A DNA stretch of 21,702 nucleotides from a virus: positions 1-21,702 of the IMG/VR virus record IMGVR_UViG_3300007354_000021. One strand, 5' to 3'. The notes under the pieces were generated by a model. It was not told where the DNA came from and searched no databases. It was given only the letters and a program-made list of their open reading frames with translations. Below, in pieces: positions 5,420 to 21,702 of the stretch. Numbering within the stretch: the stretch's first letter is position 1; the number at the start of each line of letters is the position of its first letter. Position numbers and translations under genes: made by a program.

Positions 5420-5477
5420 CCTAAATTAACCACGTTTTAGCTAACCCGGTAGGGTAGCTTAGGGTAATCCATTTACG
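5420..5477. repeat. 58-bp repeat, copy 2
   Basis: Same-orientation partner of 5221-5278, offset about 199-200 bp. It contains AGCTAACCCGGTAGGGTAGCT, which can pair AGCT with AGCT around ACCC-GGTA-GGGT. It lies inside the 30-aa frame 5421-5513. Confidence 0.75.
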
Positions 5478-5513
5478 TGTCTCTAAGAGGCTCTCAGGAG
5501 CTTCTACGGTCAT
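5421..5513 (-). CDS. Possible 30-aa peptide after the holin gene
   Basis: ATG at 5511-5513 follows GATAGGAGATAAAC, a very good Shine-Dalgarno, 37 bp after the holin stop. The peptide starts MTVEAPESLLETRKW and its C-terminal half (ITLSYPTGLAKTWLI) is coded by the 58-bp repeat. The other repeat copy can code RNGVTLYYPTGL in the same frame without a good start, so the repeat may be a decayed coding duplication. No family recognised. Confidence 0.45.
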   Translation of the reverse strand: MTVEAPESLLETRKWITLSYPTGLAKTWLI

Positions 5514-5549
5514 GTTTATCTCCTATCCAGAGGCGTATTTGTTAAATAG

Positions 5550-5981
5550 TTAAATCTTATTCCTCTCAACCCCTTTGATCCTCTCATACGTCCTAAACCC
5601 ACCAAGACCTAAGAGACCCATTAGCAACGTATTGAGGGCTTCGGTATTGACTGCTGGAAAAGCAGGTAGGCCGAAGATAGCCAATAGTCCGCTAATGATT
5701 GGCTGCATAAGAAACTCATAGGCTAGACCAGCAGCACACACCCATAGGGTTGCAGGGCGAGCGCCAGCAACAAAGACACTACTGTGATTAGCTTCAGCTT
5801 TGTTTACTTCAATCTGCTGAAGAATAGCAGACCATTCATTATCAAGTTCCTTAAGCTTACCCTCAAGTTCAGCCTTAGCGATCTCAGCCTTAGCTTTCTC
5901 TTTGGTGTCAGCATCAGGCCATATCTTATCTACGACACTGTTGATTAATTCAGCTACAGAACCTATTCCAAGTAAAGACAT
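5550..5981 (-). CDS. Holin of the 3TM (GTA-holin) type, 143 aa
   Basis: Membrane protein expected to form the inner-membrane lesion that lets the endolysin out. An N-terminal amphipathic segment (LLGIGSVAELINSVVDKIWPD) is followed by a charged helix (KEKAKAEIAKAELEGKLKELDNEWSAILQQIEVNKAEA, about 26-65), then about three hydrophobic stretches: VAGARPATLWVCAAGLAYEF, QPIISGLLAIFGLPAF and LNTLLMGLLGLGGF, and a basic tail (RTYERIKGVERNKI). This matches the GTA_holin_3TM layout (KA(E)-rich helix, ARPxxxW motif). Located behind the large terminase, where T7-like phages often place late lysis genes. The start has no good Shine-Dalgarno; SP6-like promoters at 6050-6081 and 6199-6221 are in position to transcribe it. 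Confidence 0.88.
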   Translation of the reverse strand: MSLLGIGSVAELINSVVDKIWPDADTKEKAKAEIAKAELEGKLKELDNEWSAILQQIEVNKAEANHSSVFVAGARPATLWVCAAGLAYEFLMQPIISGLLAIFGLPAFPAVNTEALNTLLMGLLGLGGFRTYERIKGVERNKI

Positions 5982-6370: not shown

Positions 6371-8029
6371 TTAAACTTCAAAGAACTTATGTCTTTCTGA
6401 AGAGTACCCTAGAACATGCTGAGAGAACTTCTCTAGCTCTTTCTGCAGAAGCTCTTCCTGATGTCTTCTTTCGTTGTCCTCTGTGTTCTGTCCTAAGACC
6501 TTCATCCAGTAGCCTACAGCAATGGCTAGAGAGTCTATACGGTCGTCAAAGATCAAAGAGCCCTTGTCTTTAGTGATCCTTGAGAGTTGGTAGAAGAGTT
6601 GATATCTAGGGTCTTCAACCTTGAGATCAGCCTGAATGACAGCCTCGTCTACAACTAGACGGTGTTGATTCAGGACAGGCTCAAGGGTGTCTATGATCCT
6701 GAGTTCTTTTCTTTGAGATTGTCTTACTCCCTCAGGGTCAATGGTGCAGGGGTATATGGAAGATAATACAGGTTTGAATAACTCGGTGAACATACCATCA
6801 CCGAAGTTATCTTCTATTATTATCCAATTAACTCCATACCTTTTGGCAATACTAGCTAAACCCTTTAGCGTAGTATCCACATAACCATCCCTAAACCCAC
6901 CAGAGGCAACAAGATATAGTAATCCTCTGGAATGCTTAACTACTGCATAACCTGTCTCATTAGTGCCTCTACCTGATGGGTCGATAGCCATGACACACCC
7001 CTGATAATTATCCCACTCAGGGGAGACATACATGGGTTTATACCATCGGTCTCCAGTGAAACCTACTGATGGTAAATCTAGTATCTGATCTCTACCGGAA
7101 GCCCAAGCTAACTTGACTGGGGCTATAGTATTATCGCAGTTAAATACTATGAAGTCAGATATTTTAAGAGGGTATTTCTCCATGTCAGATAAACTAGTAT
7201 CTAACATGAACTGAAGAGCAAAGCCTGACCTTCCATAAGAGGCTTCACGCTCCCTTAAATCCAGGTCATTAAACCTTTTAGGATCAGTAGGGATACCAGG
7301 TTTAACAGCCCCATCTAATACCTTATCTAATACTATTGGTGCTAATCTACCTTGATACCTATTTAATTCAGTTTCTTTAGGGTATCTAGCTGGCCATATT
7401 CTTACCTGATACCCCCTTTCTGCTAAAGTATTATAGACAGATAATTCAGTTTGTGGAGTACCTAGATAAGTAATTTCTCCACCAGGCATTAATACTGCAT
7501 CAAACTCTTTAACGATTTCTAATAGTTTATCTCTTTGGGTTTGTGTTAAAGAGTTATTTAAGGATTCAATATCGTCTGCAATGATGAGTGTTGCACGGCT
7601 ACCAGTCATCTGCCCAGTGATGCCCACAGACTTCACAGAAGGAGCATGAGCAGGCTTGGTAGGACCGACATCAAAGGCTATGTTGGAGTCTCGCTGTCCA
7701 GATCTAGCCTTTAGATGTACCAGTACTGGAAGCTCCGATATCAGCCTTTTAGTGAACAGAGAGAAATCATCTGCACGAGTCTTGCTGGCTGAGACTACTA
7801 GGATTTTCTCATCAGGGTTTCTTAGTAGTCTCCAGCAAACATAGGCCGATGTGATCCAAGATTTACCCACACCACGGAAAGCCTCAATGATCCTTCGCCT
7901 AGGACCAGTTTGAAGATAATGGGCAATGTCGTATTGGACAGGAGTAGGGGAGGGGAGACCTAGTTTATTCCAGGTGTAGTAGAGGAATTTCCTAAAGTCT
8001 CCCTTAAGGGAATCTTCTAGGGAGGACAA
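6371..8029 (-). CDS. terL: Terminase large subunit (T7 gp19-like)
   Basis: 552-aa packaging ATPase/nuclease that moves DNA into the prohead through the portal and cuts concatemers. Residues 49-58 (EAFRGVGKSW) are the Walker A; 147-154 (TLIIADDI) the Walker B; YLGTPQTE after it is the coupling motif. The RNase H-like nuclease follows: AIDPSGRGTNETGYAV, then IIEDNFGDGMF and FDDRIDSLAIAVGYW supply the acidic metal ligands. Extended segments (GQRDSNIAFDVGP, SVKSVGITGQMTGSRA, YPLKISD) agree with T7 gp19 (586 aa). The first codon is TTG, 2 bp after the small-subunit stop; no in-frame ATG exists between, so a weak start and translational coupling are likely. Confidence 0.98.
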   Translation of the reverse strand: MSSLEDSLKGDFRKFLYYTWNKLGLPSPTPVQYDIAHYLQTGPRRRIIEAFRGVGKSWITSAYVCWRLLRNPDEKILVVSASKTRADDFSLFTKRLISELPVLVHLKARSGQRDSNIAFDVGPTKPAHAPSVKSVGITGQMTGSRATLIIADDIESLNNSLTQTQRDKLLEIVKEFDAVLMPGGEITYLGTPQTELSVYNTLAERGYQVRIWPARYPKETELNRYQGRLAPIVLDKVLDGAVKPGIPTDPKRFNDLDLREREASYGRSGFALQFMLDTSLSDMEKYPLKISDFIVFNCDNTIAPVKLAWASGRDQILDLPSVGFTGDRWYKPMYVSPEWDNYQGCVMAIDPSGRGTNETGYAVVKHSRGLLYLVASGGFRDGYVDTTLKGLASIAKRYGVNWIIIEDNFGDGMFTELFKPVLSSIYPCTIDPEGVRQSQRKELRIIDTLEPVLNQHRLVVDEAVIQADLKVEDPRYQLFYQLSRITKDKGSLIFDDRIDSLAIAVGYWMKVLGQNTEDNERRHQEELLQKELEKFSQHVLGYSSERHKFFEV

Positions 8030-8031
8030 AC

Positions 8032-8310
8032 TTAGTGCATAGCTATATCATCTTCATCGAACTCAGGGAGAGATTCGATAAGCCTCTCTAGGTCTTCTTG
8101 GGAAGCCTTGAGACCAGTCTCGGTAAGCTCTACGTTGTTGTCTTTAAGGAATTGACGGACGACATTGAGATAGGAAGCTCCAGGTTTGATCCTAGTGACC
8201 ATGCCCGACTCTTTGTCTACTATCTCGATGCCTTTAGTAACTCCTTCAAGGAGTGTCTTTAGGAGGGCAGTATGGAGAGCTTCTGCTAGATCGTGTTTAT
8301 TCTCTGCCAT
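8032..8310 (-). CDS. terS: Terminase small subunit (T7 gp18-like)
   Basis: 92 aa, directly before the large subunit, matching T7 gp18 (89 aa) in size and place. It begins MAENKHDLAEALHTALLKTLLEG (helical), has a middle GTKGIEIVDKESGMVTRIKPGASYLNVVRQFLKDN region and an acidic tail (LERLIESLPEFDEDDIAMH), which is typical for the segment that contacts the large subunit. Expected to recognise the concatemer junction and regulate the motor. Start overlaps the previous stop (TAATG). Confidence 0.88.
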   Translation of the reverse strand: MAENKHDLAEALHTALLKTLLEGVTKGIEIVDKESGMVTRIKPGASYLNVVRQFLKDNNVELTETGLKASQEDLERLIESLPEFDEDDIAMH

Positions 8311-8567
8311 TATTCAACGGGATCATAAGTAGCTTCGAAGATATCAGGCTTGCAGGGATAGAACTCTCCTCGGATTCCTTTGATAATCCAATCCCCAGGA
8401 TTAGCCTGCATATCTCCCTCAAGAGTTTTTATAAGAAGGAACTGTTTAGTATCGTAAGGATCAACTAATGCCTCTCCTACGAACTCTCTTATTTCTTGCT
8501 CATTGGTTAAATATCCTTTCCATTGGATAGCTTCAATAACGACAGGTTTCTTTACATACTTAGGCAT
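8310..8567 (-). CDS. Conserved hypothetical phage protein (PGDWIIKG family), 85 aa
   Basis: Small protein with KYVKKPVVIEAIQW at the start and GDMQANPGDWIIKG followed by EFYPCKPDIFEATY at the end. This pattern is very common in phage genomes as an uncharacterised protein (variants PGDYIIKGVxGExYPCKPDIFExTYE). Probably a compact beta-rich soluble fold. Function unknown. Its stop overlaps the start of the small terminase gene, placing it in the packaging/lysis cluster. Confidence 0.85.
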   Translation of the reverse strand: MPKYVKKPVVIEAIQWKGYLTNEQEIREFVGEALVDPYDTKQFLLIKTLEGDMQANPGDWIIKGIRGEFYPCKPDIFEATYDPVE

Positions 8568-8779
8568 TATACTAACCTTACGTGCTTAATCAGAAAGGCA
8601 TACAGGCTATATCCAGCAGCAACACCTGCAGTTATCCAGCGGATAACCTTTAGCACTCCATTAGCCTGTGTCCAAAGCTCAACCAGCTTGTCTACTTTAT
8701 GGATGAGTTCGTCTTGGGTTTCTTTAAGTTGGGATACTGTAGCTTTTAGTTCACCAAATTCCTGCGGGTCTATGGACAT
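8567..8779 (-). CDS. Small coiled-coil/membrane protein, holin- or XhlA-like, 70 aa
   Basis: The N-terminal half is a heptad-like helix (ELKATVSQLKETQDELIHKV, then DKLVELWTQ); the C-terminal part has one membrane segment (VIRWITAGVAAGYSLYAFLI) and a short basic tail KHVRLV. This layout resembles XhlA-like and class-II/III holin-associated proteins and occupies the place of T7 gene 17.5 (holin). I use the ATG at 8779; an in-frame GTG at 8818 would give 83 aa but lies inside the hairpin at 8806-8835. Neither start has a clear Shine-Dalgarno. With the 3TM holin at 5550-5981 there would be two lysis membrane proteins. Confidence 0.7.
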   Translation of the reverse strand: MSIDPQEFGELKATVSQLKETQDELIHKVDKLVELWTQANGVLKVIRWITAGVAAGYSLYAFLIKHVRLV

Positions 8780-8805
8780 TTCATAGGGGGAATATAAGAG
8801 AGAAA

Positions 8806-8835
8806 CCCGCTGGAACACTTTTAGGAACCAGCGGG
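8806..8835 (-). terminator. Hairpin after gp16, probable weak terminator
   Basis: CCCGCTGG (8806-8813) and CCAGCGGG (8828-8835) form a perfect 8-bp GC-rich stem with a 14-nt loop, followed on the minus strand by TTTCTCTCTTAT. It sits 6 bp past the gp16 stop codon, where a fibre gene would stand in T7. An RNase processing role is also possible. Confidence 0.6.
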
Positions 8836-8841
8836 GAAAGA

Positions 8842-11800
8842 CTATCGATTATGTAAACCGTAGTCCTGTACGTTTTTAGAAGGCAGGTCTTCTCCCGCAT
8901 ACTGGAAGAAATGTTTAAGGACAGGGATAGACGCTAAAGGCATCAATCCAAGGAGAGCACGATACTCCTTCTTGGTGAAGTCATAATCGTCTCTTAGGAG
9001 GGCATTCAGAGAACCTAGACCACCGTTATACATGTCGTCTAGTAAGTGGACTGAAGGGATACTCTGAACGATATCTGAACCCAATCCTGAGGATCGAGCA
9101 TAGTTGAATAGAGGCTCCTTGCCCATGTATAGGCCGGATATCCAACCAACCATAGCAGGAAGCATTGAGGCTTGCCCCATGCGGTTAATGGCTCCCTCAA
9201 CGATCTTCTGGGGAGACATCCTAGCTTCATAGGTGTCTGTTCCTCGATAGTTGTCATAGGTCTGAGCAATATAAGACAACATACCAAAGGTGAAACCATA
9301 GGCAACAGTTAACCATTGCACTTGGTCTCTAATAGCTACACCCCTCATGGTCTGCTTATAGATACCATTCATGGCAAAGCTACGGAATTGAAACAAGAGC
9401 TTTCCTATGGCCTTGTGCATGAAGGGCATGGTTCCTCCATAGGTACCCTCTTGGATGACCGTAGTGGTCAGCCTGTGGAGAGCCATAGCGAAACCATTCC
9501 ATACATCAGGGTCCCACTGATCTTCCTTGAAGACATGGACTCTACCCTTCTTACCAAACTGAACCTTAGAGGGATCGGCAAGATGAGCAAAGAGGGATTC
9601 AAGCTGTTCGTCAGATAATCCCAAGGAGCGAAGATTCCTTGCTTCTCCTGAGTTGTTCTTGAGTATTTCTTTGGCTGATCCTTTGTACTTCTTAGCCATA
9701 TCAACTAGCTTCTGGCTCATGCCAGCAAGCATCATTCTTTGTTCCATGGCAATGACAGCATTGAAGCCAGAGACATCAGACACAAAGTTGCCTACCTTGT
9801 GTAGAGCCTTATCCACTCCTTGAACAACTACCCCATCTTGAGGGTTGAAGTGAGTGAATATCTGCTGTCTAAGTCTACTGGCTCCAATACCTGTGACAGC
9901 CTCAAGCTGTCGTACAAGCTCATTGTTCAGCTTACCATCGGCTGCCAGAGTCACCATGTTCTTTAACTCGGGCATCTGCTTGTATAAAGCGGGTAACCCG
10001 ATGTTGGCCAACATGGGGGCGGCTTCGGTTAGCTGAGACCATACAAACTGACCACCACGTACAGCAAAGTTAAAGTCCCTGGCTCTTCTCCCCCAGGTTA
10101 CGAGGAATGAAGAAGGGTCCGAATCCAATGGAACACCAGTAACAGCGTCATAAAGGTAATTGCTATACGATATTGTTTTAGAAATTTCTTTATCAGAGAC
10201 ATCTACAGCTTCCTCTTTGTATTTGTTTAGAGCAGCCAAGAAGTCAGACCTTCCTTTTATTCCTGTAGTCTCAGCAACAGCTATATGACCAGCCATTTGA
10301 TGAGCGTACATAGGGACTAGCGTGTCTAAGTCTCTTTCAAACAGGTCTGCCATCCTGACAGTTACTTTCTCTCCATTCTTGTTTGTAAACTCCTGAGAGT
10401 AGGTCATATCTAGGTCTACTCTACGCTTTAATCTACTGGTCCCTGGCTTAGTGTCCCTTAGGTTAAGCGTGTTGAGAATCTTATCTATTTCCTCAGCAGG
10501 AGTGTCAACATCCTTAAGGAGAGCCTTAAGAGTACCAGCATCTTTATATGACATTCCACCATATTCTAGTGAATGTCTGAAATTTCCATAGTGAAGGACG
10601 TTCTTAACGTACCCTCTAGCAATCTTATCGTATAGCTTTTCAAGAAGCTCTTGGTGTTCCTTAAGGTTAAAGTCTTCCCCCATATCAGCTTTCTTAGGGG
10701 AATATGTACCGTCCTTTATATCGGCTGAGCGTAGGGAGTTCTTAAAGAGGTCTACAAGGTCGGCACTTTGCCTTGATAAAGAGTCTGCCGTTTCTCTGAA
10801 CTTCTGGGAAGAGATTATGCGGGGAAGATAAGGACCATCATTAAGCTTCTCTATGGGTGCATCAGGGCCTACAAGACCAGAGGAAGTTAACCTTTTCTTA
10901 TATGTCTCGAAGAATTCTCTAGTAGCCTTAACCGCCTTAGCCTCTTCTTCGGTCATTTGAGATAGAGGAATACCAGACTCATGTAAGTCAGCAATACGGT
11001 ATATAAAAGATTTCCTTCTAGCTTCTCGTCCTAACCATGATCCTCCTTTGTCGAATTCCTTGAATGCCTGATTAAACTCTCTAAGCCAATTAGTCTGAGT
11101 GGAGTGGATCAGAACATTTCTTACTTCTTCAGCAGAGTGACCAATAGCTTTGTTCTCTGCGTTGATTCCTATAGGGTCTTGGCCTAGACGGGATAAAACC
11201 TGTGCTGTAGGCTGCTTACGGCTAAGGAGCCAGCCAGAGGCATCAAACCTGAGTCTTTCATACTTAGCTCCTACGTTACCTTCTCTGATGTAGTCTTCTC
11301 TGAGTTCATCAAGGGTAGGGGAAACTTTACGCTCTCCCATCAGGTCATCTACATAGTCAGCCTGTTGAGCACCTACGGTAGATAAGCCTTCAGTAGAAGC
11401 CTTACGATACTCTTGCGCTGCCTTATGCAAGTCTCTCGTAAGGGCAGCTTGAAGCTCAGGACGATAGCCGAACTGTCCTAAGCCTCCCTGAAAGAGAGCA
11501 CCTGTAATAGAAGCCTCTAAGATTTCCTCAGCGGGCTTAGTCTCTTGCAGACCATAAAGCCCTGCTTCAATAGCTCCAGCACCAAGCGCACCAAGGCCCA
11601 TCTGACCAGCCGTATAAGCTGCCCTACCTTGAGCAACCAAGAAACCTGAGCCTGCCGTTGCTGCACCAACGAGTAAACCCGCAGGGTCAGCAACACCAGT
11701 GAGAAGGTTGATGATGGTTCCACGTAACCCTGTTTTACCCAAGGTACGTCTGGCGTCTTGTTCCTCTGCAATATTGTTGAGGATAGCTGAGAAATGCTCT

Positions 11801-12507
11801 TGTGATCTAGCCTCGTAGAGTCTTGGGGCGTACTCCATACCCAATCCTCGCCCCAACAATAATCTCTCCATTTCATCAGGATCAGGAGGAACATAATTAG
11901 GATCAGAATCAGATAGTAGCTCCTTGATCTTCTGGATAGCTGAGGTATGGGTGAAGTTCAGCCTGGCTCCTGCCGAGAAGATATCACCAGTGTCTACCGT
12001 AGAGCCTTGCCTCTCCAGAATGTTTTCATCTGCTTCCTCTTGGATAGCTTTGCTGATAGCGTTCTGTTGCTTCTGAGCAGGCGTGAAGTAGTTAGGTACT
12101 GAGATAGAACCATAGGTATCGAGATCAACTCCAAGGACTTTCTTGACGTAATCTCGGGTTTCCTTAGGGGCTTTCTCTAAACCATGCTTGGAGACATTAC
12201 CTTCCCCCCAATTATAAGCCGCTACAGCCTTGACTCTATCTCCATCGAAAGTCTTGATAAGGTCTTTCATGTACTTCCCCATGCCCTCTATAGAGGACAC
12301 AGGGTCGTCAACATTAACACCATACTGCTTAGCAGTATCAGGCATAAACTGAGCGATTCCTTTTGCTCCTTTAGGGGATACTGCTTGAGTATTAAAGCTG
12401 CTCTCAGCCCCAAGCATCTTGGTCATGATGTCAGAGGGAACCCCTGTTTTCTTGGAGACCCTATCTATAACAGAGGCATATTCATTGCGAAGGATCGCTT
12501 CATTCAT
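8842..12507 (-). CDS. Internal virion protein with lytic transglycosylase domain (T7 gp16-like)
   Basis: 1221 aa (T7 gp16 is 1318). Ejected core protein that opens the peptidoglycan and forms part of the conduit through the envelope. Residues about 10-125 are an SLT domain: SDIMTKMLGAESSFNTQAVS with catalytic E35 (T7 uses E37), then PKGAKGIAQFMPDTAKQYGV and AAYNWGEGNVSKHG. The rest is long, mainly helical, with several Gly/Ala hydrophobic stretches (LLTGVADPAGLLVGAATAGS, TAGQMGLGALGAGAIEAGLY) suited to membrane insertion, and a C-terminal region with FQFRSFAMNGIYKQTMRG followed by hydrophobic segments (WLTVAYGFTFGMLSYIAQTY). Start ATG overlaps the gp15 stop (ATGA), indicating coupling. Confidence 0.95.
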   Translation of the reverse strand: MNEAILRNEYASVIDRVSKKTGVPSDIMTKMLGAESSFNTQAVSPKGAKGIAQFMPDTAKQYGVNVDDPVSSIEGMGKYMKDLIKTFDGDRVKAVAAYNWGEGNVSKHGLEKAPKETRDYVKKVLGVDLDTYGSISVPNYFTPAQKQQNAISKAIQEEADENILERQGSTVDTGDIFSAGARLNFTHTSAIQKIKELLSDSDPNYVPPDPDEMERLLLGRGLGMEYAPRLYEARSQEHFSAILNNIAEEQDARRTLGKTGLRGTIINLLTGVADPAGLLVGAATAGSGFLVAQGRAAYTAGQMGLGALGAGAIEAGLYGLQETKPAEEILEASITGALFQGGLGQFGYRPELQAALTRDLHKAAQEYRKASTEGLSTVGAQQADYVDDLMGERKVSPTLDELREDYIREGNVGAKYERLRFDASGWLLSRKQPTAQVLSRLGQDPIGINAENKAIGHSAEEVRNVLIHSTQTNWLREFNQAFKEFDKGGSWLGREARRKSFIYRIADLHESGIPLSQMTEEEAKAVKATREFFETYKKRLTSSGLVGPDAPIEKLNDGPYLPRIISSQKFRETADSLSRQSADLVDLFKNSLRSADIKDGTYSPKKADMGEDFNLKEHQELLEKLYDKIARGYVKNVLHYGNFRHSLEYGGMSYKDAGTLKALLKDVDTPAEEIDKILNTLNLRDTKPGTSRLKRRVDLDMTYSQEFTNKNGEKVTVRMADLFERDLDTLVPMYAHQMAGHIAVAETTGIKGRSDFLAALNKYKEEAVDVSDKEISKTISYSNYLYDAVTGVPLDSDPSSFLVTWGRRARDFNFAVRGGQFVWSQLTEAAPMLANIGLPALYKQMPELKNMVTLAADGKLNNELVRQLEAVTGIGASRLRQQIFTHFNPQDGVVVQGVDKALHKVGNFVSDVSGFNAVIAMEQRMMLAGMSQKLVDMAKKYKGSAKEILKNNSGEARNLRSLGLSDEQLESLFAHLADPSKVQFGKKGRVHVFKEDQWDPDVWNGFAMALHRLTTTVIQEGTYGGTMPFMHKAIGKLLFQFRSFAMNGIYKQTMRGVAIRDQVQWLTVAYGFTFGMLSYIAQTYDNYRGTDTYEARMSPQKIVEGAINRMGQASMLPAMVGWISGLYMGKEPLFNYARSSGLGSDIVQSIPSVHLLDDMYNGGLGSLNALLRDDYDFTKKEYRALLGLMPLASIPVLKHFFQYAGEDLPSKNVQDYGLHNR

Positions 12508-15500
12508 TTCTTATTAGCCAAATACTTAAATGTTTGAGGATTAGACGCCATGGCTCTAATGAAACCTAAAGCGGACTTCCTTCGATTGCTAGGGACTTCT
12601 GTCATGAGTTCACTAATGGAGTCCCATTTACCATCTTGCATTCTATCTATGGCCTTGGAGAAATCATTAGCTGTGTCTGTGGTCATAGCAAGGACTGATA
12701 AAGCAGCTTTGGTATTCTCTGGGAGAAGACTAAAGGTTTCTTCACCTATGATATCCAAAGCTCTCTTCTGTGCTCTCTCAAAGGAGTACTTAAGCAGATA
12801 CTCAGGCTGTGACCCTGAGAGACGCTTAGAGCCTGCTTTGAGGTCTTCTAGGACACCCTCATGGCCAAGGCCAATGAATGATGCAGGTATCAATGCCCTT
12901 GAGAAATCTATTTTCTCTTGGGTTAAATCCTTGTCAATCTTGTATCCATAACCTACCCTGAAGTTCCCTTGCTCATCCTTATAGGCAATGTTTGATCTTC
13001 CCCATACAGCCGTTGCTAAGGCTTCTCCATACTTCTTATCAGACATGAACTTATCGACCAACACCCTAGCCTCTTGTGAAGTAGGATCAGGGGTATTGGG
13101 TAGAGAAGAGTACATGACATCAATAGCAGAAGGTTCTTGAAGGAGATTCTTAACGGGAGACTGGATAATCTGTTGGAGCCTTGAGGATTCAGCCTGAAGT
13201 AGCCTCTGGGTCTTGAAATCGGATGACCAAGACTTAAGTCTATCGTTGGCTTTATCAAACTCTTTGGAGCCTATTACACCCAGACTATGGAAATGCTTTA
13301 GGTCTTCAGAGACTCTATCGAACTCTTCAGGACTCAAAATGCTCTTGCTTCTTGAGTGTTCCTCAATCTTACTCAGCGTTTCTCGTGCTGAGTGGATTTG
13401 AGAGGCTGTCAAGAAGTCCTTGCTTTGGGACTGCTTAAGAAAAGTCTCAAAGTCAATCGTCATCCCTGTAGGAGCATCATTGATAAGGACTAGATAATTA
13501 CCTGTTCCAGTATCTCCACGGACAGACTGAGGGACAGGCTTAAGGGAGATATTAACTGAATCAACATTCTCATCCTTGATGCCATAGAATTCCTTAAGAC
13601 CACTATCCCTAAGGAAAACTCTTTTGTATTCCGTTAACCCTTTCTCGAAGGCTTCCATATCGTCATCTGTGGGTCTGGTGGGAAGATGGCTAATATCTAT
13701 TAACTGTTTTCTTCCATCTACCTCAATCATCCGATGACTACCAGCAAAAGCACTGGAGGCTCCCGAGATAATTTCTTCAGGGGAAGCATTAGGATTGATC
13801 GCTACGTATTCCCTTATCTCTTCCTCGATCCAGTTACGAGCATAGAAGTTATCAGCAAAGTCTTTCCCTGAGTTCCAGAAGCCTCTAACATCAAGCTTCT
13901 CTACGGACTTGTTCAGGAGTTCCTTTACTGCCGAAGGCTCAGCCTTGATCCAGTCTCGTTTATCTAGGGGGAGTTCTTTGGTGAATAGATAAGCAGCCTC
14001 CAGGTTATGACCATTATGCTGTGCTCTATCGAACAGGTTAGACCAAAAGTAAGCTGCTCTCTTGTCTTCAATATTCCTTATGAAGTTATCCCTACCATTC
14101 TTATCGTTATAGTAGGAATAAGCTAAAGTCATAGCTTGCTTTACTCTATCCGGAATCTGTTCCTTACCGTCTGCTTTAGAGACAGGAGCATAAGCGGCAT
14201 CTATGAATAGCTTTTGATGGTCCGGATGGATGATACCATTAGTCTTTGCTAGGTAGAGTCTTTGGGCTTCTATAGCTTGAGGGTCACCAGCCTTACCAAT
14301 AGCATTAAGCTGAGCACTCACAGCCTTGTCTAAGACATACCCTAGCTTATCCTTAGGTACTCCTGCCGTAGCAATCCTGCCATCAAGAGCTTGAGGAATG
14401 AACCTATCGAGAGCTTTAGTTTCCCAATAGGTATTGAGATAGTCCTTGTAGTAGCTGGATACATCAGACCCTTTAAGTCTTTTCTCTTGGAAATGCTGAA
14501 GGAGGTTAGCCTCGAACTCTTCAGGCTCTACAAGAGGGGCCATGCCGTTCTTGAAGGCTTGGAGCTGATCCTGAATAGTATTCTTAGTTACAGCTCGGAT
14601 ACCTTCAGTGTTAGCCTTCATGCCCTCATCAAGAGCCTTCTGTGCTCTAGCCATAGCCTGTTGCCAAGCAGCAGCGTTATCTCCACCTCTTAGGGCATAT
14701 CCGGGTAGACCATCAGCAGTAGGCTTAATGAAAGACTCAAGTAAAGCAGGGTCTCCATTCTGTACAGCATAGGTAGCTGCTGCTTGGAAGACTTGCTGTT
14801 CAATATCTCCCCTTCTCATGTTGAGCATGGAGAATTCAGCCTTAAGGTCATCAAGCCAACTATCAGGGCGCTTAGGGTCTGTAAAGTGACTCATGGCCTT
14901 GGTCATAAGCATTCCCTGCTTATTATCTTCTACCTGCTGGATGTTATCCCTTATCGACCCATTAACGAAGTCTGTGACGGTCTTAGAAACTCGCTCCTGA
15001 TAACTCTGAAGGAACCTAGGGTCGTTGACTCCTTTGATATATTCACCAAAGAAACTATCAGCAAAAGTCCTAGAGTAACGAGGGTCATTGTTATTCTGAT
15101 CGTAATTATCCGCCGCATGTTGAGCAAAAGCCTGTTGAGCCTCAAGACCATATTTAGCTCCAAGCTGAGCCGTATAGGTTTCCTGAAAGATAGGGGAAGA
15201 CTCAGGGGAGATAGCCGAGAGGGCTTCCATAGGAGTACCCTTAAAGGATTGAGCCATAAGCTCAGCCCTTCGTATTTCCTCTTCTCTCTGCTTCTTTAGC
15301 AATAGCTCTTGTTGTCTAAGGTCTGCCTGTGCCTGTGCATTACCAAACTGCTGTAGACCCTCAGAGAGGCTGCCTAAGCCTATAGCGAGCTGTCTTAGCT
15401 CGGTGTACTGCTTAGGCTCTTGCCTCTGGGGGGCTATAAAGGGTTGTCTTACAGAGGTATCTACAGGCTGAGCGTTGACTTGCGTAATTACACTAGGATC

Positions 15501-15554
15501 AGTAATGTTTACTTGAGGTCTAGCAGATACTCTCTTTCTGTTCTCTCTAGCCAC
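12504..15554 (-). CDS. Internal virion core protein gp15-like with C-terminal lysozyme-like domain
   Basis: 1016 aa, starting with GTG that overlaps the gp14 stop (TAGTG). By position and size it is the T7 gp15 counterpart (747 aa) but about 270 residues longer. Most of it is helical and charged (for example QAQADLRQQELLLKKQREEE near the start), as for a stacked-ring core protein that forms the periplasmic tube with gp16. Residues about 840-1016 resemble T4-type lysozyme: AYKDEQGNFRVGYGY lines up with IYKDTEGYYTIGIGH, and KAIDRMQDGKWDSISELM with the later lysozyme helices. At the catalytic Glu position there is W851, and T26 is replaced by R866, while the Asp (D860) remains, so the domain is probably inactive and may bind peptidoglycan. 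Confidence 0.88.
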   Translation of the reverse strand: MARENRKRVSARPQVNITDPSVITQVNAQPVDTSVRQPFIAPQRQEPKQYTELRQLAIGLGSLSEGLQQFGNAQAQADLRQQELLLKKQREEEIRRAELMAQSFKGTPMEALSAISPESSPIFQETYTAQLGAKYGLEAQQAFAQHAADNYDQNNNDPRYSRTFADSFFGEYIKGVNDPRFLQSYQERVSKTVTDFVNGSIRDNIQQVEDNKQGMLMTKAMSHFTDPKRPDSWLDDLKAEFSMLNMRRGDIEQQVFQAAATYAVQNGDPALLESFIKPTADGLPGYALRGGDNAAAWQQAMARAQKALDEGMKANTEGIRAVTKNTIQDQLQAFKNGMAPLVEPEEFEANLLQHFQEKRLKGSDVSSYYKDYLNTYWETKALDRFIPQALDGRIATAGVPKDKLGYVLDKAVSAQLNAIGKAGDPQAIEAQRLYLAKTNGIIHPDHQKLFIDAAYAPVSKADGKEQIPDRVKQAMTLAYSYYNDKNGRDNFIRNIEDKRAAYFWSNLFDRAQHNGHNLEAAYLFTKELPLDKRDWIKAEPSAVKELLNKSVEKLDVRGFWNSGKDFADNFYARNWIEEEIREYVAINPNASPEEIISGASSAFAGSHRMIEVDGRKQLIDISHLPTRPTDDDMEAFEKGLTEYKRVFLRDSGLKEFYGIKDENVDSVNISLKPVPQSVRGDTGTGNYLVLINDAPTGMTIDFETFLKQSQSKDFLTASQIHSARETLSKIEEHSRSKSILSPEEFDRVSEDLKHFHSLGVIGSKEFDKANDRLKSWSSDFKTQRLLQAESSRLQQIIQSPVKNLLQEPSAIDVMYSSLPNTPDPTSQEARVLVDKFMSDKKYGEALATAVWGRSNIAYKDEQGNFRVGYGYKIDKDLTQEKIDFSRALIPASFIGLGHEGVLEDLKAGSKRLSGSQPEYLLKYSFERAQKRALDIIGEETFSLLPENTKAALSVLAMTTDTANDFSKAIDRMQDGKWDSISELMTEVPSNRRKSALGFIRAMASNPQTFKYLANKK

Positions 15555-16198
15555 TATTTAACTCCATAGGTTTTGGCCATAAGGTCTTTATTGTCTTGGT
15601 AGGATGTAATCTTTCCTGCTGTGTTTAAGCTCTGCCCTGCTATAGTCAAGCCAGCACCCAACCAAGAAGGGCCGTTATAGGAGGGCCTAGGTAATCTTTG
15701 GGAAGCCTGAGAGTAGATGGTATTAAGTTGTCCCTGAGTATCAGCCTGAATACCCTTAGCTCTAAGTCGAGCCTGTTTAACAGAGCTTGCTCGATTAGCC
15801 TCAAGGGAGGCTATGTCAGTGCCTAGATTAAATAGAGGTTCATTCTCTAGCCTTGTCATAGTGATACCACCAAGACCAGACTCACCAGCAGCTACTCGGA
15901 CCCTGGCTTGTTCCTTAAGGGCATTCCTGGCAGCTAAAGACATTTGGTCTACAGTTTGAGCATTTATCTGTGATATTTGCTCTGAAATCGTTTCTTGTTG
16001 AGCCTGATAGCTCTGCTGAATGGAAGCTGTTTGAGCTTCATAGAAAGCTTTCTGCTGAGCGTATAATTGCTGCTGATAAGCCACCTCAGCTTCATATTGG
16101 GCTTGTGCTGCTTGCTGTTGCTGCATGGTGCCTACTACTGTAGATGCAGCACTCATGGCAATACCAGCAACCATGATCGCTTCGGTTACGCCACACAT
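15554..16198 (-). CDS. Internal virion protein (T7 gp14-like)
   Basis: 214 aa (T7 gp14 is 196). Begins MCGVTEAIMVAGIAMSAAST, a short hydrophobic segment like the MCW... start of T7 gp14, then a long Gln/Ala-rich helix (GTMQQQQAAQAQYEAEVAYQ, with repeated QQ and YQAQQ) and LAARNALKEQARVRVAAGESGLGG, the conserved middle of the family, followed by helical C-terminus. After ejection it should form the outer-membrane pore. Overlaps gp13 by 13 bp and gp15 by 1 bp. Confidence 0.88.
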   Translation of the reverse strand: MCGVTEAIMVAGIAMSAASTVVGTMQQQQAAQAQYEAEVAYQQQLYAQQKAFYEAQTASIQQSYQAQQETISEQISQINAQTVDQMSLAARNALKEQARVRVAAGESGLGGITMTRLENEPLFNLGTDIASLEANRASSVKQARLRAKGIQADTQGQLNTIYSQASQRLPRPSYNGPSWLGAGLTIAGQSLNTAGKITSYQDNKDLMAKTYGVK

Positions 16199-16659
16199 TT
16201 AACAAACTGAATAAAAGGATGATTAAAAGGACCGTGAGGAATAGTCCTGTGAAACTCAAACCCTAGCCACTTAAGCCAACGGTGAGCGCTTACATTATGA
16301 ATATCGACAAGGTTAGTGAGGACAGGGAAAGCTTTATTCATCAAAGCTACCCACTCCTTACATCCTCTCAAGAATTGAACTTGATTCTGTTTAGAGTGAT
16401 CCATCACTAAAAATATATCTTCAGAACAGACAAACCAGGGGCACCCTACAAGGGGGAATCCTTCATATCTAGCTAGGCCGAAGACACCCAAAAGTTTCTC
16501 GTCGTCTCCTACCACAGTGTAGGACCAAATAGACTCTTCTACGCTGGACTTAAGGGCTTCCTTCGGAGACTTACCAGAAGATAAAAACCCTTCTGCTATA
16601 TCCGAAGGACGAAGCTTAAGGGTCTCTATATGGGCTTCTGTGGTAGGAATTGTTTTCAT
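16186..16659 (-). CDS. gp13-like protein with GNAT acetyltransferase resemblance
   Basis: 157 aa, between tail tube B and gp14, exactly the T7 gene 13 position (T7 gp13 is 138 aa). The sequence contains LRPSDIAEGF, SIWSYTVVGDDEKLLGVFGL, CPWFVCSEDIF, and a C-terminal part NVSAHRWLKWLGFEFHRTIPHG which looks like the end of a GNAT fold (N-x-x-A-x-R-x-L-x-x-L-G-F). The usual acetyl-CoA loop (RxxGxG/A) is not visible. T7 gp13 affects virion assembly without remaining clearly in the particle; an assembly role is the likeliest. Confidence 0.8.
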   Translation of the reverse strand: MKTIPTTEAHIETLKLRPSDIAEGFLSSGKSPKEALKSSVEESIWSYTVVGDDEKLLGVFGLARYEGFPLVGCPWFVCSEDIFLVMDHSKQNQVQFLRGCKEWVALMNKAFPVLTNLVDIHNVSAHRWLKWLGFEFHRTIPHGPFNHPFIQFVKCVA

Positions 16660-18785
16660 ATTCTCCGTGATCTCATTTGTACAAACTGCTCAAACTCTAG
16701 TGCCTGTATAGCGAACGGCCTATAGGAGCTTTCTTCAATTACTATAGCTGTATCCTTACCATCCCCCATAATAGGTACGCTAAACACTCCGGTTCCTATA
16801 GGGGTTACATTACCTTGTGAATCTAAAGGGTCTGTAGCTTTGAATTGATAGGAGTAGGTAGAGCGATCTTTAGGGGTAACTTTAATGGTGAACTGTCCGG
16901 TATCGTTATATACCGTCCTCATCCTCTTGAGTTTAATAGAGGATTGAGCCAATACCGAGTTATTGGAGGAATCTCTAGGGTACTGGGGGGAAAGCTGGTA
17001 TTTGGAGGTATAAGGGATACCTATAAATACTTTCTTTGTTAAATGATTGCCTGAGATGTCATAGTAATATGTTTCTACGCCAGCTATGTTTGTGTGAGAG
17101 GTCCATGCTATCTCATCTCCTATTTCATTATCAGGAAACCCTTTACCTTTAAAGACTTTAACCTTATCAAACAGGCTAGGATAGCTTATTCCAACAACAG
17201 CCATGCGGGTTGTGTTTGTGCCTGAATCATAGGAGACAGCACTATATTCTCTCTGTGCGATTTCTCCTACAGTTCCGTTATAGGCAATATCATCAAGGAA
17301 TATATCTGTTAACTCACTGTCAGTAGTTATTTCTTCCTGTAGATTTAAGTGCCACAATCTCAGTGTGTAATCTGTCTCTACTCCTGTGAAAGTTCTATAA
17401 GTAGTAATATATAGTTTACCTTCAATAACATCCATAGTAGCTATCTGTTCAACACCAAAGGTCCACTTAGACCAACTGGATTGAACCTTTTCATCACCCT
17501 TCCAATAATACTTGTAGACGTAGATAGCGTTTCTCTCATCGGAAGACAAGAAGAAGAGCAAGTCTTGGTTACTTGCTGTTGCTATCTTGACAATGTTCTT
17601 GGGGAGGTATGAAGGGCAATGTGCTGTAATGTTGTCAGCATCATTAGAGGTTACATAATCCTGAGCAAAGTACTCCAAAATGTCAGAGTTGTTCTGTTTC
17701 TCTGAAGCAAAATAGACATTAGGACCAGCAGCCACAGGGCGAACTTTAGGGGAACACTCGAACTCCGTTGTTTGGTGAATCTGGATAGCTTTTGGGGTTA
17801 GAGAATCACCAGACTCTACTTGGAATTGAGTAGTGTTAGAGAAGATCAAAAGAGATTTATCAAAGGGCACAGCATGGTTAAGAATGCTGATCTTTGTGTG
17901 ACTTATGGAGACATCTATGGGATCACTATCGAGGACCGCTGTAACTGTCTCAGGGAAGAAGTTGAAGAAATCTCCTGCTCTCGAAAAGATGATGTTTTCA
18001 TCAGCCAAGAAACCTAAGCGGTTCCTGAAGAAGAACATATCATTCATTTTCTTCCCAACAAAAGAGGGAAATGGAATAGAAGCTAAGTCACCCACTAAAC
18101 GATCATTCCATGAGATAGTTGAGAAAGTCCATGTACCGTCAGCATTCCTAACCAATTTATGGGGCATGGTAGCAGGGTCAAGCTGATAGTTCTCTCCAGG
18201 TCTACCATGTTCTACCCAAGCTGTTCCTGTGCCTCTAACATAATAATTATCGAAAGCATTGGTATTATCTCCAGCAATCTCCCATACATGCCCTGCTGTT
18301 GGAGTAGCGGGAAGATCAGAGAACCTTTGCTTAGTTCCCTGAAGAGTTCCGCTCATGGTAGTAGAGGTTTTCTTAGCTGGCTTTATACTCTTGTTCAGAA
18401 TGATTGTTGTGTCAGCTATGGTGAGGACTACTAGTTCTTCTGCGGGTTTCTGTACATTACCTAAATAAGCTACATAAGACCCTCCAGGGTCATCGGCTGT
18501 TACAAATGTATCTGTTGCAATGTTGTAGATTTCAGCCGTAAAGGGAGTGAAAGCTATTACATACCTCTCCGTTTCACTTCTATCTATGAAGTGTACGAAT
18601 GTTTCAGGGAAACCCTCAGACCATAGGTTTTTGAGAAACCTTAAAGGTGGACGCCTATGGAGACCATAGACGATAGAACTCATGCAATTTTCTTGTAGCT
18701 CCCCTTGGGACTCATGTCTGACTGAAGGGGCTTGCTGTGAGATTCCGTTATAGAGATTGGGGATTACTTTATTGACGAGTGCCAC
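16656..18785 (-). CDS. Tail tubular protein B / nozzle (T7 gp12-like)
   Basis: 709 aa (T7 gp12 is 794). Forms the hexameric nozzle at the tip of the short tail. Typical start ALVNKVIPNLYNGISQQAPS, VRHESQGELQENCMSSIVYG and RPPLRFL, all characteristic of the family, then beta-propeller-like repeats (FVHFIDRSETERYVIAFTP, NDMFFFRNRLGFLADENIIF, FPETVTAVLDSDPIDVSISH). The C-terminal region is beta-rich (TIKVTPKDRSTYSYQF). Start codon is GTG, overlapping the gp11 stop (TAGTG). The end overlaps gp13 by 4 bp. Confidence 0.97.
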   Translation of the reverse strand: MALVNKVIPNLYNGISQQAPSVRHESQGELQENCMSSIVYGLHRRPPLRFLKNLWSEGFPETFVHFIDRSETERYVIAFTPFTAEIYNIATDTFVTADDPGGSYVAYLGNVQKPAEELVVLTIADTTIILNKSIKPAKKTSTTMSGTLQGTKQRFSDLPATPTAGHVWEIAGDNTNAFDNYYVRGTGTAWVEHGRPGENYQLDPATMPHKLVRNADGTWTFSTISWNDRLVGDLASIPFPSFVGKKMNDMFFFRNRLGFLADENIIFSRAGDFFNFFPETVTAVLDSDPIDVSISHTKISILNHAVPFDKSLLIFSNTTQFQVESGDSLTPKAIQIHQTTEFECSPKVRPVAAGPNVYFASEKQNNSDILEYFAQDYVTSNDADNITAHCPSYLPKNIVKIATASNQDLLFFLSSDERNAIYVYKYYWKGDEKVQSSWSKWTFGVEQIATMDVIEGKLYITTYRTFTGVETDYTLRLWHLNLQEEITTDSELTDIFLDDIAYNGTVGEIAQREYSAVSYDSGTNTTRMAVVGISYPSLFDKVKVFKGKGFPDNEIGDEIAWTSHTNIAGVETYYYDISGNHLTKKVFIGIPYTSKYQLSPQYPRDSSNNSVLAQSSIKLKRMRTVYNDTGQFTIKVTPKDRSTYSYQFKATDPLDSQGNVTPIGTGVFSVPIMGDGKDTAIVIEESSYRPFAIQALEFEQFVQMRSRRI

Positions 18786-19372
18786 TAGAGGTTTCTATCA
18801 ACAATATCTAGGGTGCTGTAGCTTCCTGTAAGTATATTATAGTGATTACCGGAAGTATCTTGATCCTCTGCGGATGCAAGAGCCTGAGCTTCTTCTTCCT
18901 CTGTAAACCCATCTAAGAGTTCAGCGCTTATCTGTCTCTTTTGAAATTTCCTTGCAGCCTTGACCATAATGTAATGGCGTAGGGCTTGAGGTAGGTCAGT
19001 GAAGGGTAGAAGTCGAATAACGTCAAACTTAACAGGATCAGTGAATACAAAGGTTCTGTCCTTAATGTTGTATATCTTGGTTCCTCTTTGGGTGAGGATC
19101 AGATATTTATAATCTTTGGTAGGTTCTATACGGAGAATGTCAGAGTCTACATTCAAGTATCCGTTTACATCAGGGGTAAGCTCTAAGTCATACTCTTTGT
19201 TTACCATCCAGCCCCGCTCTTGGACTTGACGAGAGGATTCATCAAGATCGGCAAGAGCGTTGATTACATCCAAAGATGTAGGGCTAGATAGAGTAGACAC
19301 AGGCGCTTCCCCTATGATTCGAAGCATGGTATTGACTGCTTCGAGTTCAGATAGGAGGGTTACTGTGGTCAC
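18785..19372 (-). CDS. Tail tubular protein A / gatekeeper (T7 gp11-like)
   Basis: 195 aa, nearly the size of T7 gp11 (196). Begins TVTLLSELEAVNTMLRIIGEAPVSTL; the family signature of LxAVNxML...IGxAPV is clear, followed by SSRQVQERGWMVNKEYDLEL, PDVNGYLNVDSDILRI and DLPQALRHYIMVKAARKFQ. It forms the dodecameric ring between portal and nozzle. GTG start 3 bp after the SGNH gene stop. Confidence 0.96.
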   Translation of the reverse strand: MTTVTLLSELEAVNTMLRIIGEAPVSTLSSPTSLDVINALADLDESSRQVQERGWMVNKEYDLELTPDVNGYLNVDSDILRIEPTKDYKYLILTQRGTKIYNIKDRTFVFTDPVKFDVIRLLPFTDLPQALRHYIMVKAARKFQKRQISAELLDGFTEEEEAQALASAEDQDTSGNHYNILTGSYSTLDIVDRNL

Positions 19373-19375
19373 TGT

Positions 19376-20662
19376 TTAAAGTCCAAACACTCTTTCAAAG
19401 CTTCGGGTAGCTAAGGCTTCGTAACCAGCTACCGATAGATGAGCTTTGTCTGCTCCTCCATTTCCATACCAGCCGTTAGCTAGGCCCTCAGCGGTAGTGA
19501 ACATGGTTTGAAGATTGAAGGAGGCTACTCTAGGCTCTGTCATGGCTATCTCATCCGCTGCCCTAGAGAATGCTTCTCGGGCTAACTGAAAGGCTGAGCC
19601 TTCATCGTCATACCTGTGATCTACCATGAGTAGGAACCCTAGTTCTTCCTGATTTCCTCCTGCAAGAGAATAAGCCGCCCTAATCCACTCTATTGTCTCA
19701 ATAAGATTGGCCTTAAACTCGTCTCCAGAAACACTAGAGTCGTTAGCTCCCCAAATAAGAGCAACAACAATCTTTGGTGAATATCCAGAGAGCATTTGCT
19801 TACGTCTGATCCTAGCTAAATAAGCCCCGTTTCTTGCTTGGCTAGACGACCTAAGTAGTTTAAGGAAGCTTGTAGCAGATGATCCAGTAAGTAGCCAACC
19901 GCTGTAATAAGCCCAAAGATGGGTAGCTATACCAGCTACTCCAAGGCCATCCACACCAAGCCTGTCCACAGCCATATACCCAAACCAAGCATTAGCTGTG
20001 ATAGACGTGAAACCCATTGCATGTTGGTTAGTGGTGGGAATTTCGACATCCATGTAGGTAAGCTTTGAGTTATCGCCTACGTTACAAGGGATAGAGGCAG
20101 AGGTTTTAATTTCGGTATAAGGACTTTGCTCCAGGTTACAACGCATGGTGAAACTCCCTCCCCCACTTCCAAAGTCACCATATTCGAGCCAATACCTCCA
20201 CGTTTCGTTAGCGCTTGCTCCAAGCTTATCCGGTTTAAATGTAGTTCTCTTTACGATACCAGCGTTTACGGTTACGTAGGCATAATTGTGGGTAGTAAAG
20301 TCCGACATTAAAGAGCTTAAATGGCCCGGCGCTCCGGCCTGTGCCCCTATAGCTGCACTTAATGCTTCCATGTGTTGAGACACAAACCCTGATCCTACGA
20401 ATGCTGCGGACGGGACTAGCCCAATAGAGTATATGTTTCCTCCACAAGCTTTAAACCCGTGAGATAAACCCCAATACCAACCACTAGAGTTGGCTGCTAC
20501 GTTGGAATCTCCGACTAAAGGGACATCTACAAGACCCCTACCGTACTTAGCTGTTTCAAAAGCACTCTTAACCCAACTATCGGAAACACCGTAGTAGGTG
20601 TTGGTCTTGCTTATCTTTTCTCCGCTAATTACTGACTGAGAAGTTTCTAAAGGATTACTCAT
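19376..20662 (-). CDS. SGNH/GDSL-hydrolase-like tail protein, 428 aa
   Basis: Contains the block I motif VPLVGDSNVAANS (catalytic S53), block III GAND (N307) and block V ADKAHLS (D405, H408), as in SGNH esterases; the whole catalytic set appears present. About 250 residues separate blocks I and III, with a beta-rich region (150-240: RYWLEYGDFGSGGGSFTMRC, VEIPTTNQHAMGF), which suggests an inserted carbohydrate-binding or structural module. Phage-borne SGNH enzymes usually deacetylate or de-esterify capsule, O-antigen or exopolysaccharide. It lies between capsid and tail-tube genes, with no gene 17 fibre elsewhere in the window, so it is a likely receptor-binding/depolymerase component. There is no recognisable T7 fibre N-terminus. 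Confidence 0.78.
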   Translation of the reverse strand: MSNPLETSQSVISGEKISKTNTYYGVSDSWVKSAFETAKYGRGLVDVPLVGDSNVAANSSGWYWGLSHGFKACGGNIYSIGLVPSAAFVGSGFVSQHMEALSAAIGAQAGAPGHLSSLMSDFTTHNYAYVTVNAGIVKRTTFKPDKLGASANETWRYWLEYGDFGSGGGSFTMRCNLEQSPYTEIKTSASIPCNVGDNSKLTYMDVEIPTTNQHAMGFTSITANAWFGYMAVDRLGVDGLGVAGIATHLWAYYSGWLLTGSSATSFLKLLRSSSQARNGAYLARIRRKQMLSGYSPKIVVALIWGANDSSVSGDEFKANLIETIEWIRAAYSLAGGNQEELGFLLMVDHRYDDEGSAFQLAREAFSRAADEIAMTEPRVASFNLQTMFTTAEGLANGWYGNGGADKAHLSVAGYEALATRSFERVFGL

Positions 20663-20673: not shown

Positions 20674-20931
20674 TTATGAATAACTCAAGGACGCTCTATT
20701 GTCCCAAACATTATCGAAGTTACCATTACCATCAGCCCAGGTAACGGTAATAGAGCCTCCAGACGTTACCGTGCGTTTAATTCTCCAGACAGCAGCATTA
20801 GAGGCGCTTCCGGGTTCGGCATCTCCTTCGTACACGGTTCCAGCTCCGGGGTCATCTTTACGGTAGGCTAAGGCTCCCGCTATGGTGTGAGCATTACCAT
20901 CGGTGTATCTCTGACCAATTCTTATTGACAT
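20674..20931 (-). CDS. Conserved hypothetical protein, 85 aa
   Basis: First gene after the terminator at 20946-20980. Beta-rich: MSIRIGQRYTDGNAHTIAGALAY is followed by a Gly/Asp/Glu-rich middle, then VWRIKRTVTSGGSITVTWADGN, NFDNVWDNRASLSYS. The WRIK...TWADG..NFDNVWDNRASLxYS pattern recurs in short phage proteins near structural genes. It lies 11 bp before the SGNH gene, suggesting a virion or fibre-associated role. Function unknown. Confidence 0.78.
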   Translation of the reverse strand: MSIRIGQRYTDGNAHTIAGALAYRKDDPGAGTVYEGDAEPGSASNAAVWRIKRTVTSGGSITVTWADGNGNFDNVWDNRASLSYS

Positions 20932-20945: not shown

Positions 20946-20980
20946 AAAAAAAGCCTCCACAGGTAGGTTCCTATGGAGGC
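20946..20980 (-). terminator. Strong intrinsic terminator after the capsid genes
   Basis: On the minus strand an 11-bp stem, GCCTCCATAGG paired with CCTGTGGAGGC (one G-U), 6-nt loop, followed by seven T (20946-20952). Its place behind the capsid cluster corresponds to the T7 T-phi terminator after gene 10, which lowers expression of downstream tail genes relative to capsid. Confidence 0.92.
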
Positions 20981-20993
20981 TTTATGGTTGATA

Positions 20994-21221
20994 CTACTTC
21001 AGGAGTTGAACGGTAGATGGAATACCATTAGTGCCTTGAAGCGTCTTTTTGATGAGCATGTGAAGCTCTTTGGAGGGGGGAAGTTGATACCTTTTGGTTG
21101 TGGTAGCGTCAGCGAACCAAATACTACCATCATCCCAATACTCAACATCTAGCGTAGCTACCGTAAGAGAGCCAGCAGAGTTAAGGCCGCGAAGCTTAAG
21201 ATCGTACAGCTTAACTGCCAT
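20994..21221 (-). CDS. Hypothetical capsid-linked protein, 75 aa
   Basis: Lies 12 bp after the capsid gene and 13 bp before the terminator stem, thus co-expressed at capsid level. Two strand-rich segments (AVKLYDLKLRGLNSAGSLTV, then ATLDVEYWDDGSIWFADATT) precede a helical C-terminus (LPPSKELHMLIKKTLQGT). No family recognised. Position and expression suggest a head decoration or minor structural protein. Confidence 0.72.
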   Translation of the reverse strand: MAVKLYDLKLRGLNSAGSLTVATLDVEYWDDGSIWFADATTTKRYQLPPSKELHMLIKKTLQGTNGIPSTVQLLK

Positions 21222-21233: not shown

Positions 21234-21702
21234 TTAGGCAGTCTTAAGCTCTACCGCAGCTTCGGGGCGGAGAGTTCCGTTACCCTTAGCCATCTTAGCT
21301 ACCAGCAAAGTACCCTGATGCCGTACCGAATACTCACTCTCAACAGCCATATCGAGCAAGGTAAGAGAACCTACAGCCGAACGGTGAAGGATAAGAGCAG
21401 CGGTATTAGAGGCGTCTACGTTGTACTTGGATGCAATCTGACCAGTCAAGTTGGTGGTCGGAAGAGTATTAGCCTTGACGATCTCAATACCAGCGATCTT
21501 TACGATAGTACCATCAGAGTAAGCACCAGAACCGCCATAGTCACGGTTAATGGCTACAAGGTTCTGAGACAAGAGGTAATACTGAGCAGGCTTAACGAAG
21601 CAGCGCCTTTCAGTATCGGGAATCCAGTTCTCATCAAAGGTTTGAGCAGCCTTGAATAGACCACCTGCAAGAGTCGTAGCGTCGGTCTTATAGTTAGCGT
21701 TA
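21234..21702 (-). CDS. Major capsid protein (T7 gp10A-like), C-terminal part, cut by window
   Basis: The frame stays open to the right window edge, so the start is outside. The visible 155 codons include GGLFKAAQTFDENWIPDTER, CFVKPAQYYLLSQN, AINRDYGGSGAYSDGTIVKI and AGIEIVKANTLP, which is the P-domain and C-terminal pattern of T7-type HK97-fold capsid proteins (phage-typical DE..vP..eR..v..P.qyy.L). The end EYSVRHQGTLLVAKMAKGNG plus RPEAAVEL is the conserved C-terminal strand (hqG..lv.k...G.g.lrPe.a). The apparent TTG at 21572 is internal, not a start. Confidence 0.95.
   Translation of the reverse strand, partial: NANYKTDATTLAGGLFKAAQTFDENWIPDTERRCFVKPAQYYLLSQNLVAINRDYGGSGAYSDGTIVKIAGIEIVKANTLPTTNLTGQIASKYNVDASNTAALILHRSAVGSLTLLDMAVESEYSVRHQGTLLVAKMAKGNGTLRPEAAVELKTA

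Follow-up and report, generated by a model that had tools for sequence, protein, structure and literature searches.

Gene organisation of the record

The window analysed here is an entire IMG/VR record of 21,702 bases and represents a genome fragment. On its minus strand, the genes follow one another in the order gp10 (C-terminal part), p75, a strong hairpin, p85, a gene for an SGNH-family hydrolase, gp11, gp12, gp13, gp14, gp15, gp16 with its SLT domain, two small genes, TerS, TerL, a holin gene, further small genes, a gene for a MarR-like regulator, and a tyrosine integrase gene (int). The gp10-gp16 and TerL set stands in T7 order, as in the Autographiviridae (T7-like phages). The main features are as follows.

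21234-21701, minus strand: major capsid protein gp10, C-terminal part, cut by the contig end (PF21703, 2.5e-35, Gp10A-like)
20994-21221, minus strand: p75, a small protein
20950-20983, minus strand: intrinsic-terminator-like hairpin between p75 and p85 (-24 kcal/mol, z -6.8)
20674-20931, minus strand: p85, 85 aa, directly upstream of the SGNH gene
19376-20662, minus strand: SGNH-family hydrolase, 428 aa (open reading frame, motifs and a sub-threshold Pfam GDSL match)
18785-19372, minus strand: gp11 adaptor/tail tube protein (PF17212, 1.2e-47; alignment with T7)
16656-18785, minus strand: gp12 nozzle (PF25675, 4e-197; alignment with T7)
8842-12507, minus strand: gp16 with SLT transglycosylase domain (PF01464, 7.9e-21; phrog_342, 3e-166)
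8797-8835 (region 8790-8845), minus strand: terminator-like hairpin after gp16 (-17.1 kcal/mol, z -5.3)
8567-8779, minus strand: protein of ~70 aa, coiled-coil-like at its N-terminus and with a single hydrophobic segment (open reading frame with in-frame ATG)
8032-8310, minus strand: TerS (phrog_891, 1.2e-7)
6371-8029, minus strand: TerL (phrog_38, 2.7e-117)

The record ends within gp10 at one side and just beyond int at the other, and a search for contigs extending it at either end found none. In a relative of 42,385 bp (G002), int and the regulator gene are positioned as in the record, and int adjoins an open reading frame that, judged from its translation start, is T7-RNAP-like. This is followed by replication-type genes, portal, scaffold, and capsid, several of them judged from translation starts only, and the int-to-gp10 genes (RNAP, replication, portal, and scaffold) make up about half of the G002 genome. 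By this gene order, the record is without roughly the RNAP-to-capsid half of its genome (~20 kb).

Just downstream of int, a 42-nt stretch at 52-93 resembles the 3' end of a gammaproteobacterial tRNA-Leu gene; it occurs within two mismatches in 52 of 369 genomes, with no occurrences of a reversed-pattern control. This stretch is likely to be attP, similar to the attP of T7-like cyanophages (PMC8776855). Two further observations concern other parts of the record. Between the holin gene and a gene for a 242-aa protein, ~1 kb (4540-5550) is without a substantial coding-strand open reading frame, and it is here that the promoter scan placed its best site (4622-4595). In gp15 (12504-15554), the last ~170 aa resemble, by eye only and with no Pfam match, a degenerate T4-lysozyme-type domain (YKDEQGNFRVGYGYKI).

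The SGNH-family hydrolase

The preliminary description of this locus reported a full Ser-Asn-Asp-His set at 19376-20662, and SGNH blocks I, III, and V are indeed present in order: G51-D-S53-N (residues 51-54), G305-A-N307-D (305-308), and D405-K-A-H408 (405-408). The codons of the catalytic residues lie on the minus strand as follows.

20506-20504, minus strand: S53
19744-19742, minus strand: N307
19450-19448, minus strand: D405
19441-19439, minus strand: H408

The ordered motif set arose in 67 of 200,000 composition shuffles; among the 756 other open reading frames of 300 aa or more in the loci retrieved, one contains it. Two Pfam profiles match the protein below their curated cut-offs, namely Lipase_GDSL_2 (PF13472; E=4.8e-5, 24.4 bits against a cut-off of 32.9) and Lipase_GDSL (PF00657; E 9e-4, 19.9 bits against 23.6). 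The PF13472 alignment spans residues 279-416, which include the GxND and DxxH blocks and exclude the GDSN block ~250 residues upstream; this spacing implies a long insertion after block I. Homologues of the protein were found neither in phages, plasmids, viral contigs, genome contigs, and the PDB nor in 369 genomes of the class to which the host of L183 belongs. Single-sequence AlphaFold2 prediction of the enzyme gave a pLDDT of 34 and is uninformative, so the SGNH fold is deduced from the motifs and the profile match. The product is most likely an SGNH-fold serine hydrolase acting as an O-acetyl esterase on a host surface polysaccharide. The earlier suggestion that it may deacetylate such a polysaccharide is plausible by analogy with proven SGNH tail enzymes of Aristophanes, G7C, and Klebsiella prophages.

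The gp10-gp11 slot

The gene had also been placed between genes 10 and 11, which is correct, with p75 and p85 likewise lying between gp10 and the SGNH gene. In T7, this interval holds the terminator Tphi only, and in 39 sampled phage records where one place covered both proteins, gp10 and gp11 lie within ~1.4 kb in total. One exception to this compact spacing was sampled, Pseudomonas phage Keeri, in which a 457-aa protein annotated as "structural protein with Ig domain" occupies the slot (L192, 12561-13934). In this protein, a complete SGNH hydrolase (PF13472, 3.8e-9; motifs GDSL, GTND, and DGTH) follows a Big_2 Ig domain, and both domains score above the Pfam cut-offs. Matches covering at least 80% of the protein occur in 27 phage records, Pifdecavirus and Ghunavirus among them, several of which are annotated as "minor capsid protein" or "structural protein with Ig domain". 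Ghual01 and Kompost-2, like Keeri, encode the SGNH protein between gp10 and gp11 with the catalytic residues present, and all three phages keep a PF03906 fibre after gp16. The SGNH domain of the P421 minor capsid protein has already been published (PMC9003214). Thus, the gp10-gp11 interval is already known as a slot for capsid-accessory genes, and, because at least two T7-like genera have an SGNH protein there in addition to a normal fibre, an enzyme in this slot does not imply fibre replacement.

The window gene is encoded at this same position, between gp10 and gp11. BLASTP gave no significant alignment between its product and the Keeri-type protein, and Pfam found no N-terminal Ig (Big_2) domain in it. 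Since homology to the Keeri type is not detectable, the two kinds of enzyme seem to have entered the slot independently of each other, although they may be very remotely homologous.

The SGNH stop codon and the gp11 start are separated by 3 nt, so the gene belongs to the late structural block; a single weak promoter-like match lies within the gene, and the sequence immediately before the gene has none. Both this arrangement and the slot precedent, which consists of structural proteins, argue against a gene for lysogenic conversion, whose non-virion product would act in or on the lysogen, for example by altering O-acetylation of the surface polysaccharide and thereby excluding other phages. The integrase, the MarR-like regulator, and the tRNA-Leu attP do suggest temperate potential, but we consider such a role very unlikely.

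The p75 and p85 genes

Homologues of p75 sit at the same gp10-gp11 place in the closest relatives, L002, L003 (34%), and L004 (45%), and the hairpin that follows p75 stands in place of T7 Tphi. These relationships also bear on whether the SGNH segment could have been artificially joined to a T7-like contig during assembly. The segment is covered by one contig only, since a second contig, L109, stops at 17125. However, p75 is in the right place and shared with relatives, gp11 starts directly after the SGNH stop, and the GC and GC3 of the SGNH gene are similar to those of its neighbours, which makes a chimera extremely improbable.

The p85 protein has 73 distinct homologues in 82 viral loci (L099-L180), and its conserved C-terminal domain follows the pattern Y-x-G-x-A ... 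W ... WADGN-x-x-FDNVWDNRASLSYS. AlphaFold2 predicts a four-stranded beta fold for this 65-residue domain (pLDDT ~95 over residues 21-85). The p85 of the window has no Pfam, NCBIfam, or PHROG match, and its predicted fold has no PDB counterpart, only unnamed viral relatives having been matched. Where neighbouring genes are recognisable, those before p85 homologues are mostly portal, capsid, and head-maturation genes, and those after them encode lectin, collagen, hyaluronidase, glycosidase, and tail-fibre proteins and, once, an SGNH protein. The last case is contig L175, in which a p85-like gene directly precedes the gene for a 594-aa protein that has SGNH motifs and matches Lipase_GDSL_2, the next product being a beta-helix protein. 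As in the window, a p85-family gene thus directly precedes an SGNH-motif protein; unlike in the window, no T7-like genes were found on the fragment, the SGNH domain is C-terminal, and the two SGNH proteins show no detectable pairwise similarity. In 13 of 77 loci, proteins downstream of p85 carry an N-terminal "KYDPxLGKL" tag, which is absent from the window SGNH protein. The order capsid genes, p85, enzyme in the window matches the p85 pattern, here set inside a T7-like genome downstream of the p75 terminator. Independently of the enzyme, p85 represents an unnamed, widespread phage family whose genes come after head genes and ahead of those for fibres or enzymes, and it merits a family description.

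The gene 17 site and the fibre docks

In the preliminary description, gene 17 was said to be missing from its usual place after gp16, where a hairpin and a small membrane protein were noted instead. Both elements are present, together with a second small gene (85 aa) before TerS: the gp16-TerS interval contains the hairpin, the membrane-type protein of ~70 aa, which occupies the place of T7 gp17.5 and may have a holin-like role, and the separate 85-aa protein, with no gene 17. Contig L109, from another sample, is 99.95% identical over 6694-17125 and has the same gp16-TerL interval, which indicates that the canonical gene 17 site is genuinely empty. The search for a fibre gene that had been proposed, run within the 21.7-kb record, gave no match to the Phage_T7_tail domain (PF03906) even at E<=10. 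The SGNH protein, which had been described as without a T7 fibre N-terminus, contains neither this domain nor any recognisable docking domain. Since about half of the genome lies outside the record, the absence of gene 17 applies to the available sequence alone.

Aligned with T7, gp11 has no deletion in the fibre-dock region, and the part of gp12 that aligns with the fibre dock is retained. A stretch of ~100 aa present in T7 gp12 around residues 137-250 is missing from the window gp12, a loss common to three relatives (L004, L059, and L069). The idea that this deletion removed the fibre dock, fibre and dock having been lost together, was rejected, because by the T7 gp12 domain order (PMC6702177) the ~137-250 part should be the nozzle tip domain; moreover, L069 has the same gp12 loss and yet a T7 fibre start after its gp16. 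With no deletion at the docks on gp11 and gp12, a fibre or another protein may still sit there.

Within this context, the SGNH protein could be a tail-attached receptor-binding enzyme that replaces gp17 and uses p85, or a short N-terminus of its own, to dock on gp11/gp12; in this scenario, the fibre gene was lost and the cassette was inserted beside gp11. PF03906 is absent from the record, as opposed to its presence in 26 of the 37 relatives identified by way of gp11 (the remainder being mostly short contigs) and in all five that also yielded TerL (G002, G007, G008, G009, and G012). The interval confirmed by L109, the retained docks, and the frequent position of p85 homologues before fibre, lectin, and glycosidase genes (in L175 before an SGNH gene and then a beta-helix gene) are likewise consistent with this possibility. 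Nonetheless, at least three of the phages examined combine an SGNH protein in this slot with a normal fibre, no docking domain is recognisable, and the kept docks suggest that a T7-type fibre could still exist in the unseen half. A tail-attached replacement for gp17 is therefore a serious but rather doubtful alternative.

It is also conceivable, with a probability that we place somewhat short of even, that an intact fibre is encoded in the ~20 kb outside the record, in which case the SGNH protein would be an accessory and nothing would have been replaced. The record stops inside gp10 and just past int, the genes between these points account for about half of G002, the docks are retained, and receptor-binding protein genes at other positions have been published for other Autographiviridae, such as PP1 and POP72 (PMC7693777). 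On the other hand, in the int-to-gp10 blocks listed for G002, no open reading frame could be recognised as a fibre gene, as judged by translation start and length only. As this alternative concerns the fibre and not the enzyme, it is compatible with a head-mounted enzyme. With a head-mounted enzyme, the missing gene 17 would be a separate fact, and the gene may have been lost or have moved to the unseen half. The broader proposal of the preliminary description, that the host-range determinant was relocated and replaced by an enzyme, is accordingly not established, as same-slot SGNH proteins coexist with a fibre and half of the genome is unseen. A more far-reaching version, which we regard as unlikely, would be a T7-like phage without any gp17 that adsorbs by means of a compact SGNH esterase mounted on p85, the latter being a previously undescribed adaptor from phages with other gene orders, at the retained gp11/gp12 docks or at the capsid. 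This arrangement would amount to a modular, non-gp17 adsorption system.

A candidate virion-exterior esterase

The explanation that we tentatively prefer, and to which we give close to an even chance, is that the SGNH protein is a late-made esterase on the virion exterior, encoded in the capsid-accessory slot and most likely located on the head surface, with p85 as its partner or anchor and the missing gene 17 as a separate matter. The enzyme would be produced late, along with the structural proteins, and would sit on the exterior of the particle. By analogy with Aristophanes gp41, G7C gp63.1, and Klebsiella prophage fibres, it would hydrolyse acetyl esters on a host surface polysaccharide and so may help the particle to engage or penetrate acetylated glycans. 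Mounting on the head, in the manner of a minor capsid protein, is suggested by the gp10-gp11 slot, and the small beta domain of p85 might serve as the partner or anchor of the enzyme. Two considerations count against a head location: without homology to the Keeri type and without an Ig domain, the precedent is one of position and fold only, and, with no visible fibre, something must bind the host. In addition, many genes downstream of p85 elsewhere are tail-fibre-like, and a tail location fits this as well. The Pfam score below the cut-off and the low pLDDT of the enzyme also count against the preferred explanation.

This class of enzyme is already known, as are T7-like phages that use it and that encode it in the gp10-gp11 slot. 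What is new is the combination of a slot SGNH protein that is non-homologous to the known ones, an empty gene 17 site, and pairing with p85. T7-like phages are a model for host range driven by tail fibres, and a member without gp17 at its site would show how the adsorption apparatus can be swapped. The gp10-gp11 slot appears to gain SGNH enzymes repeatedly without detectable relatedness among them, the p85 domain in many phages marks the point where head genes give way to genes for adhesins or enzymes, and heads, like tails, may serve as mounts for esterases. Cultured Pseudomonas phages, such as Keeri or P421, offer a direct test ground for head-mounted esterases.

Comparison with known SGNH enzymes of phages

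Several SGNH proteins of phages have proven activity. The gp41 tailspike of Aristophanes, which like the window phage is a T7-family phage (Autographiviridae) with an SGNH enzyme, deacetylates the capsule (PMC8471582), and the tail proteins G7C gp63.1 and the Klebsiella prophage fibres are proven deacetylases or esterases (PMC13123978). The Pectobacterium phages Q19, PP47, and PP81 resemble the window phage in being T7-like and having an SGNH domain; unlike the window protein, their tailspikes have a T7-type N-terminal anchor and are encoded at the canonical place, and the minor capsid gene is separate (PMC7693777). A separate GDSL esterase in a T7-like phage, as in the window, is known from Vibrio phage Peru-2, whose 473-aa P2_42 is abundant in virions by mass spectrometry and has no location in the cryo-EM map (PMC13320782); it therefore provides a parallel for virion association without a known mount. 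The P2_42 gene adjoins a T7-anchored tailspike gene, whereas the window gene lies between gp10 and gp11.

With respect to position, the closest counterparts are found in Keeri and Phi-S1 (Pifdecavirus), Ghual01 and Kompost-2 (Ghunavirus), and P421, in which, as in the window, an SGNH hydrolase is encoded exactly between gp10 and gp11. The Keeri-type protein is also of similar size (~450 aa). It differs in its N-terminal Ig domain and in its coexistence with a PF03906 tail fibre in the three phages checked, whereas the window protein is without the Ig domain and is preceded by p85.
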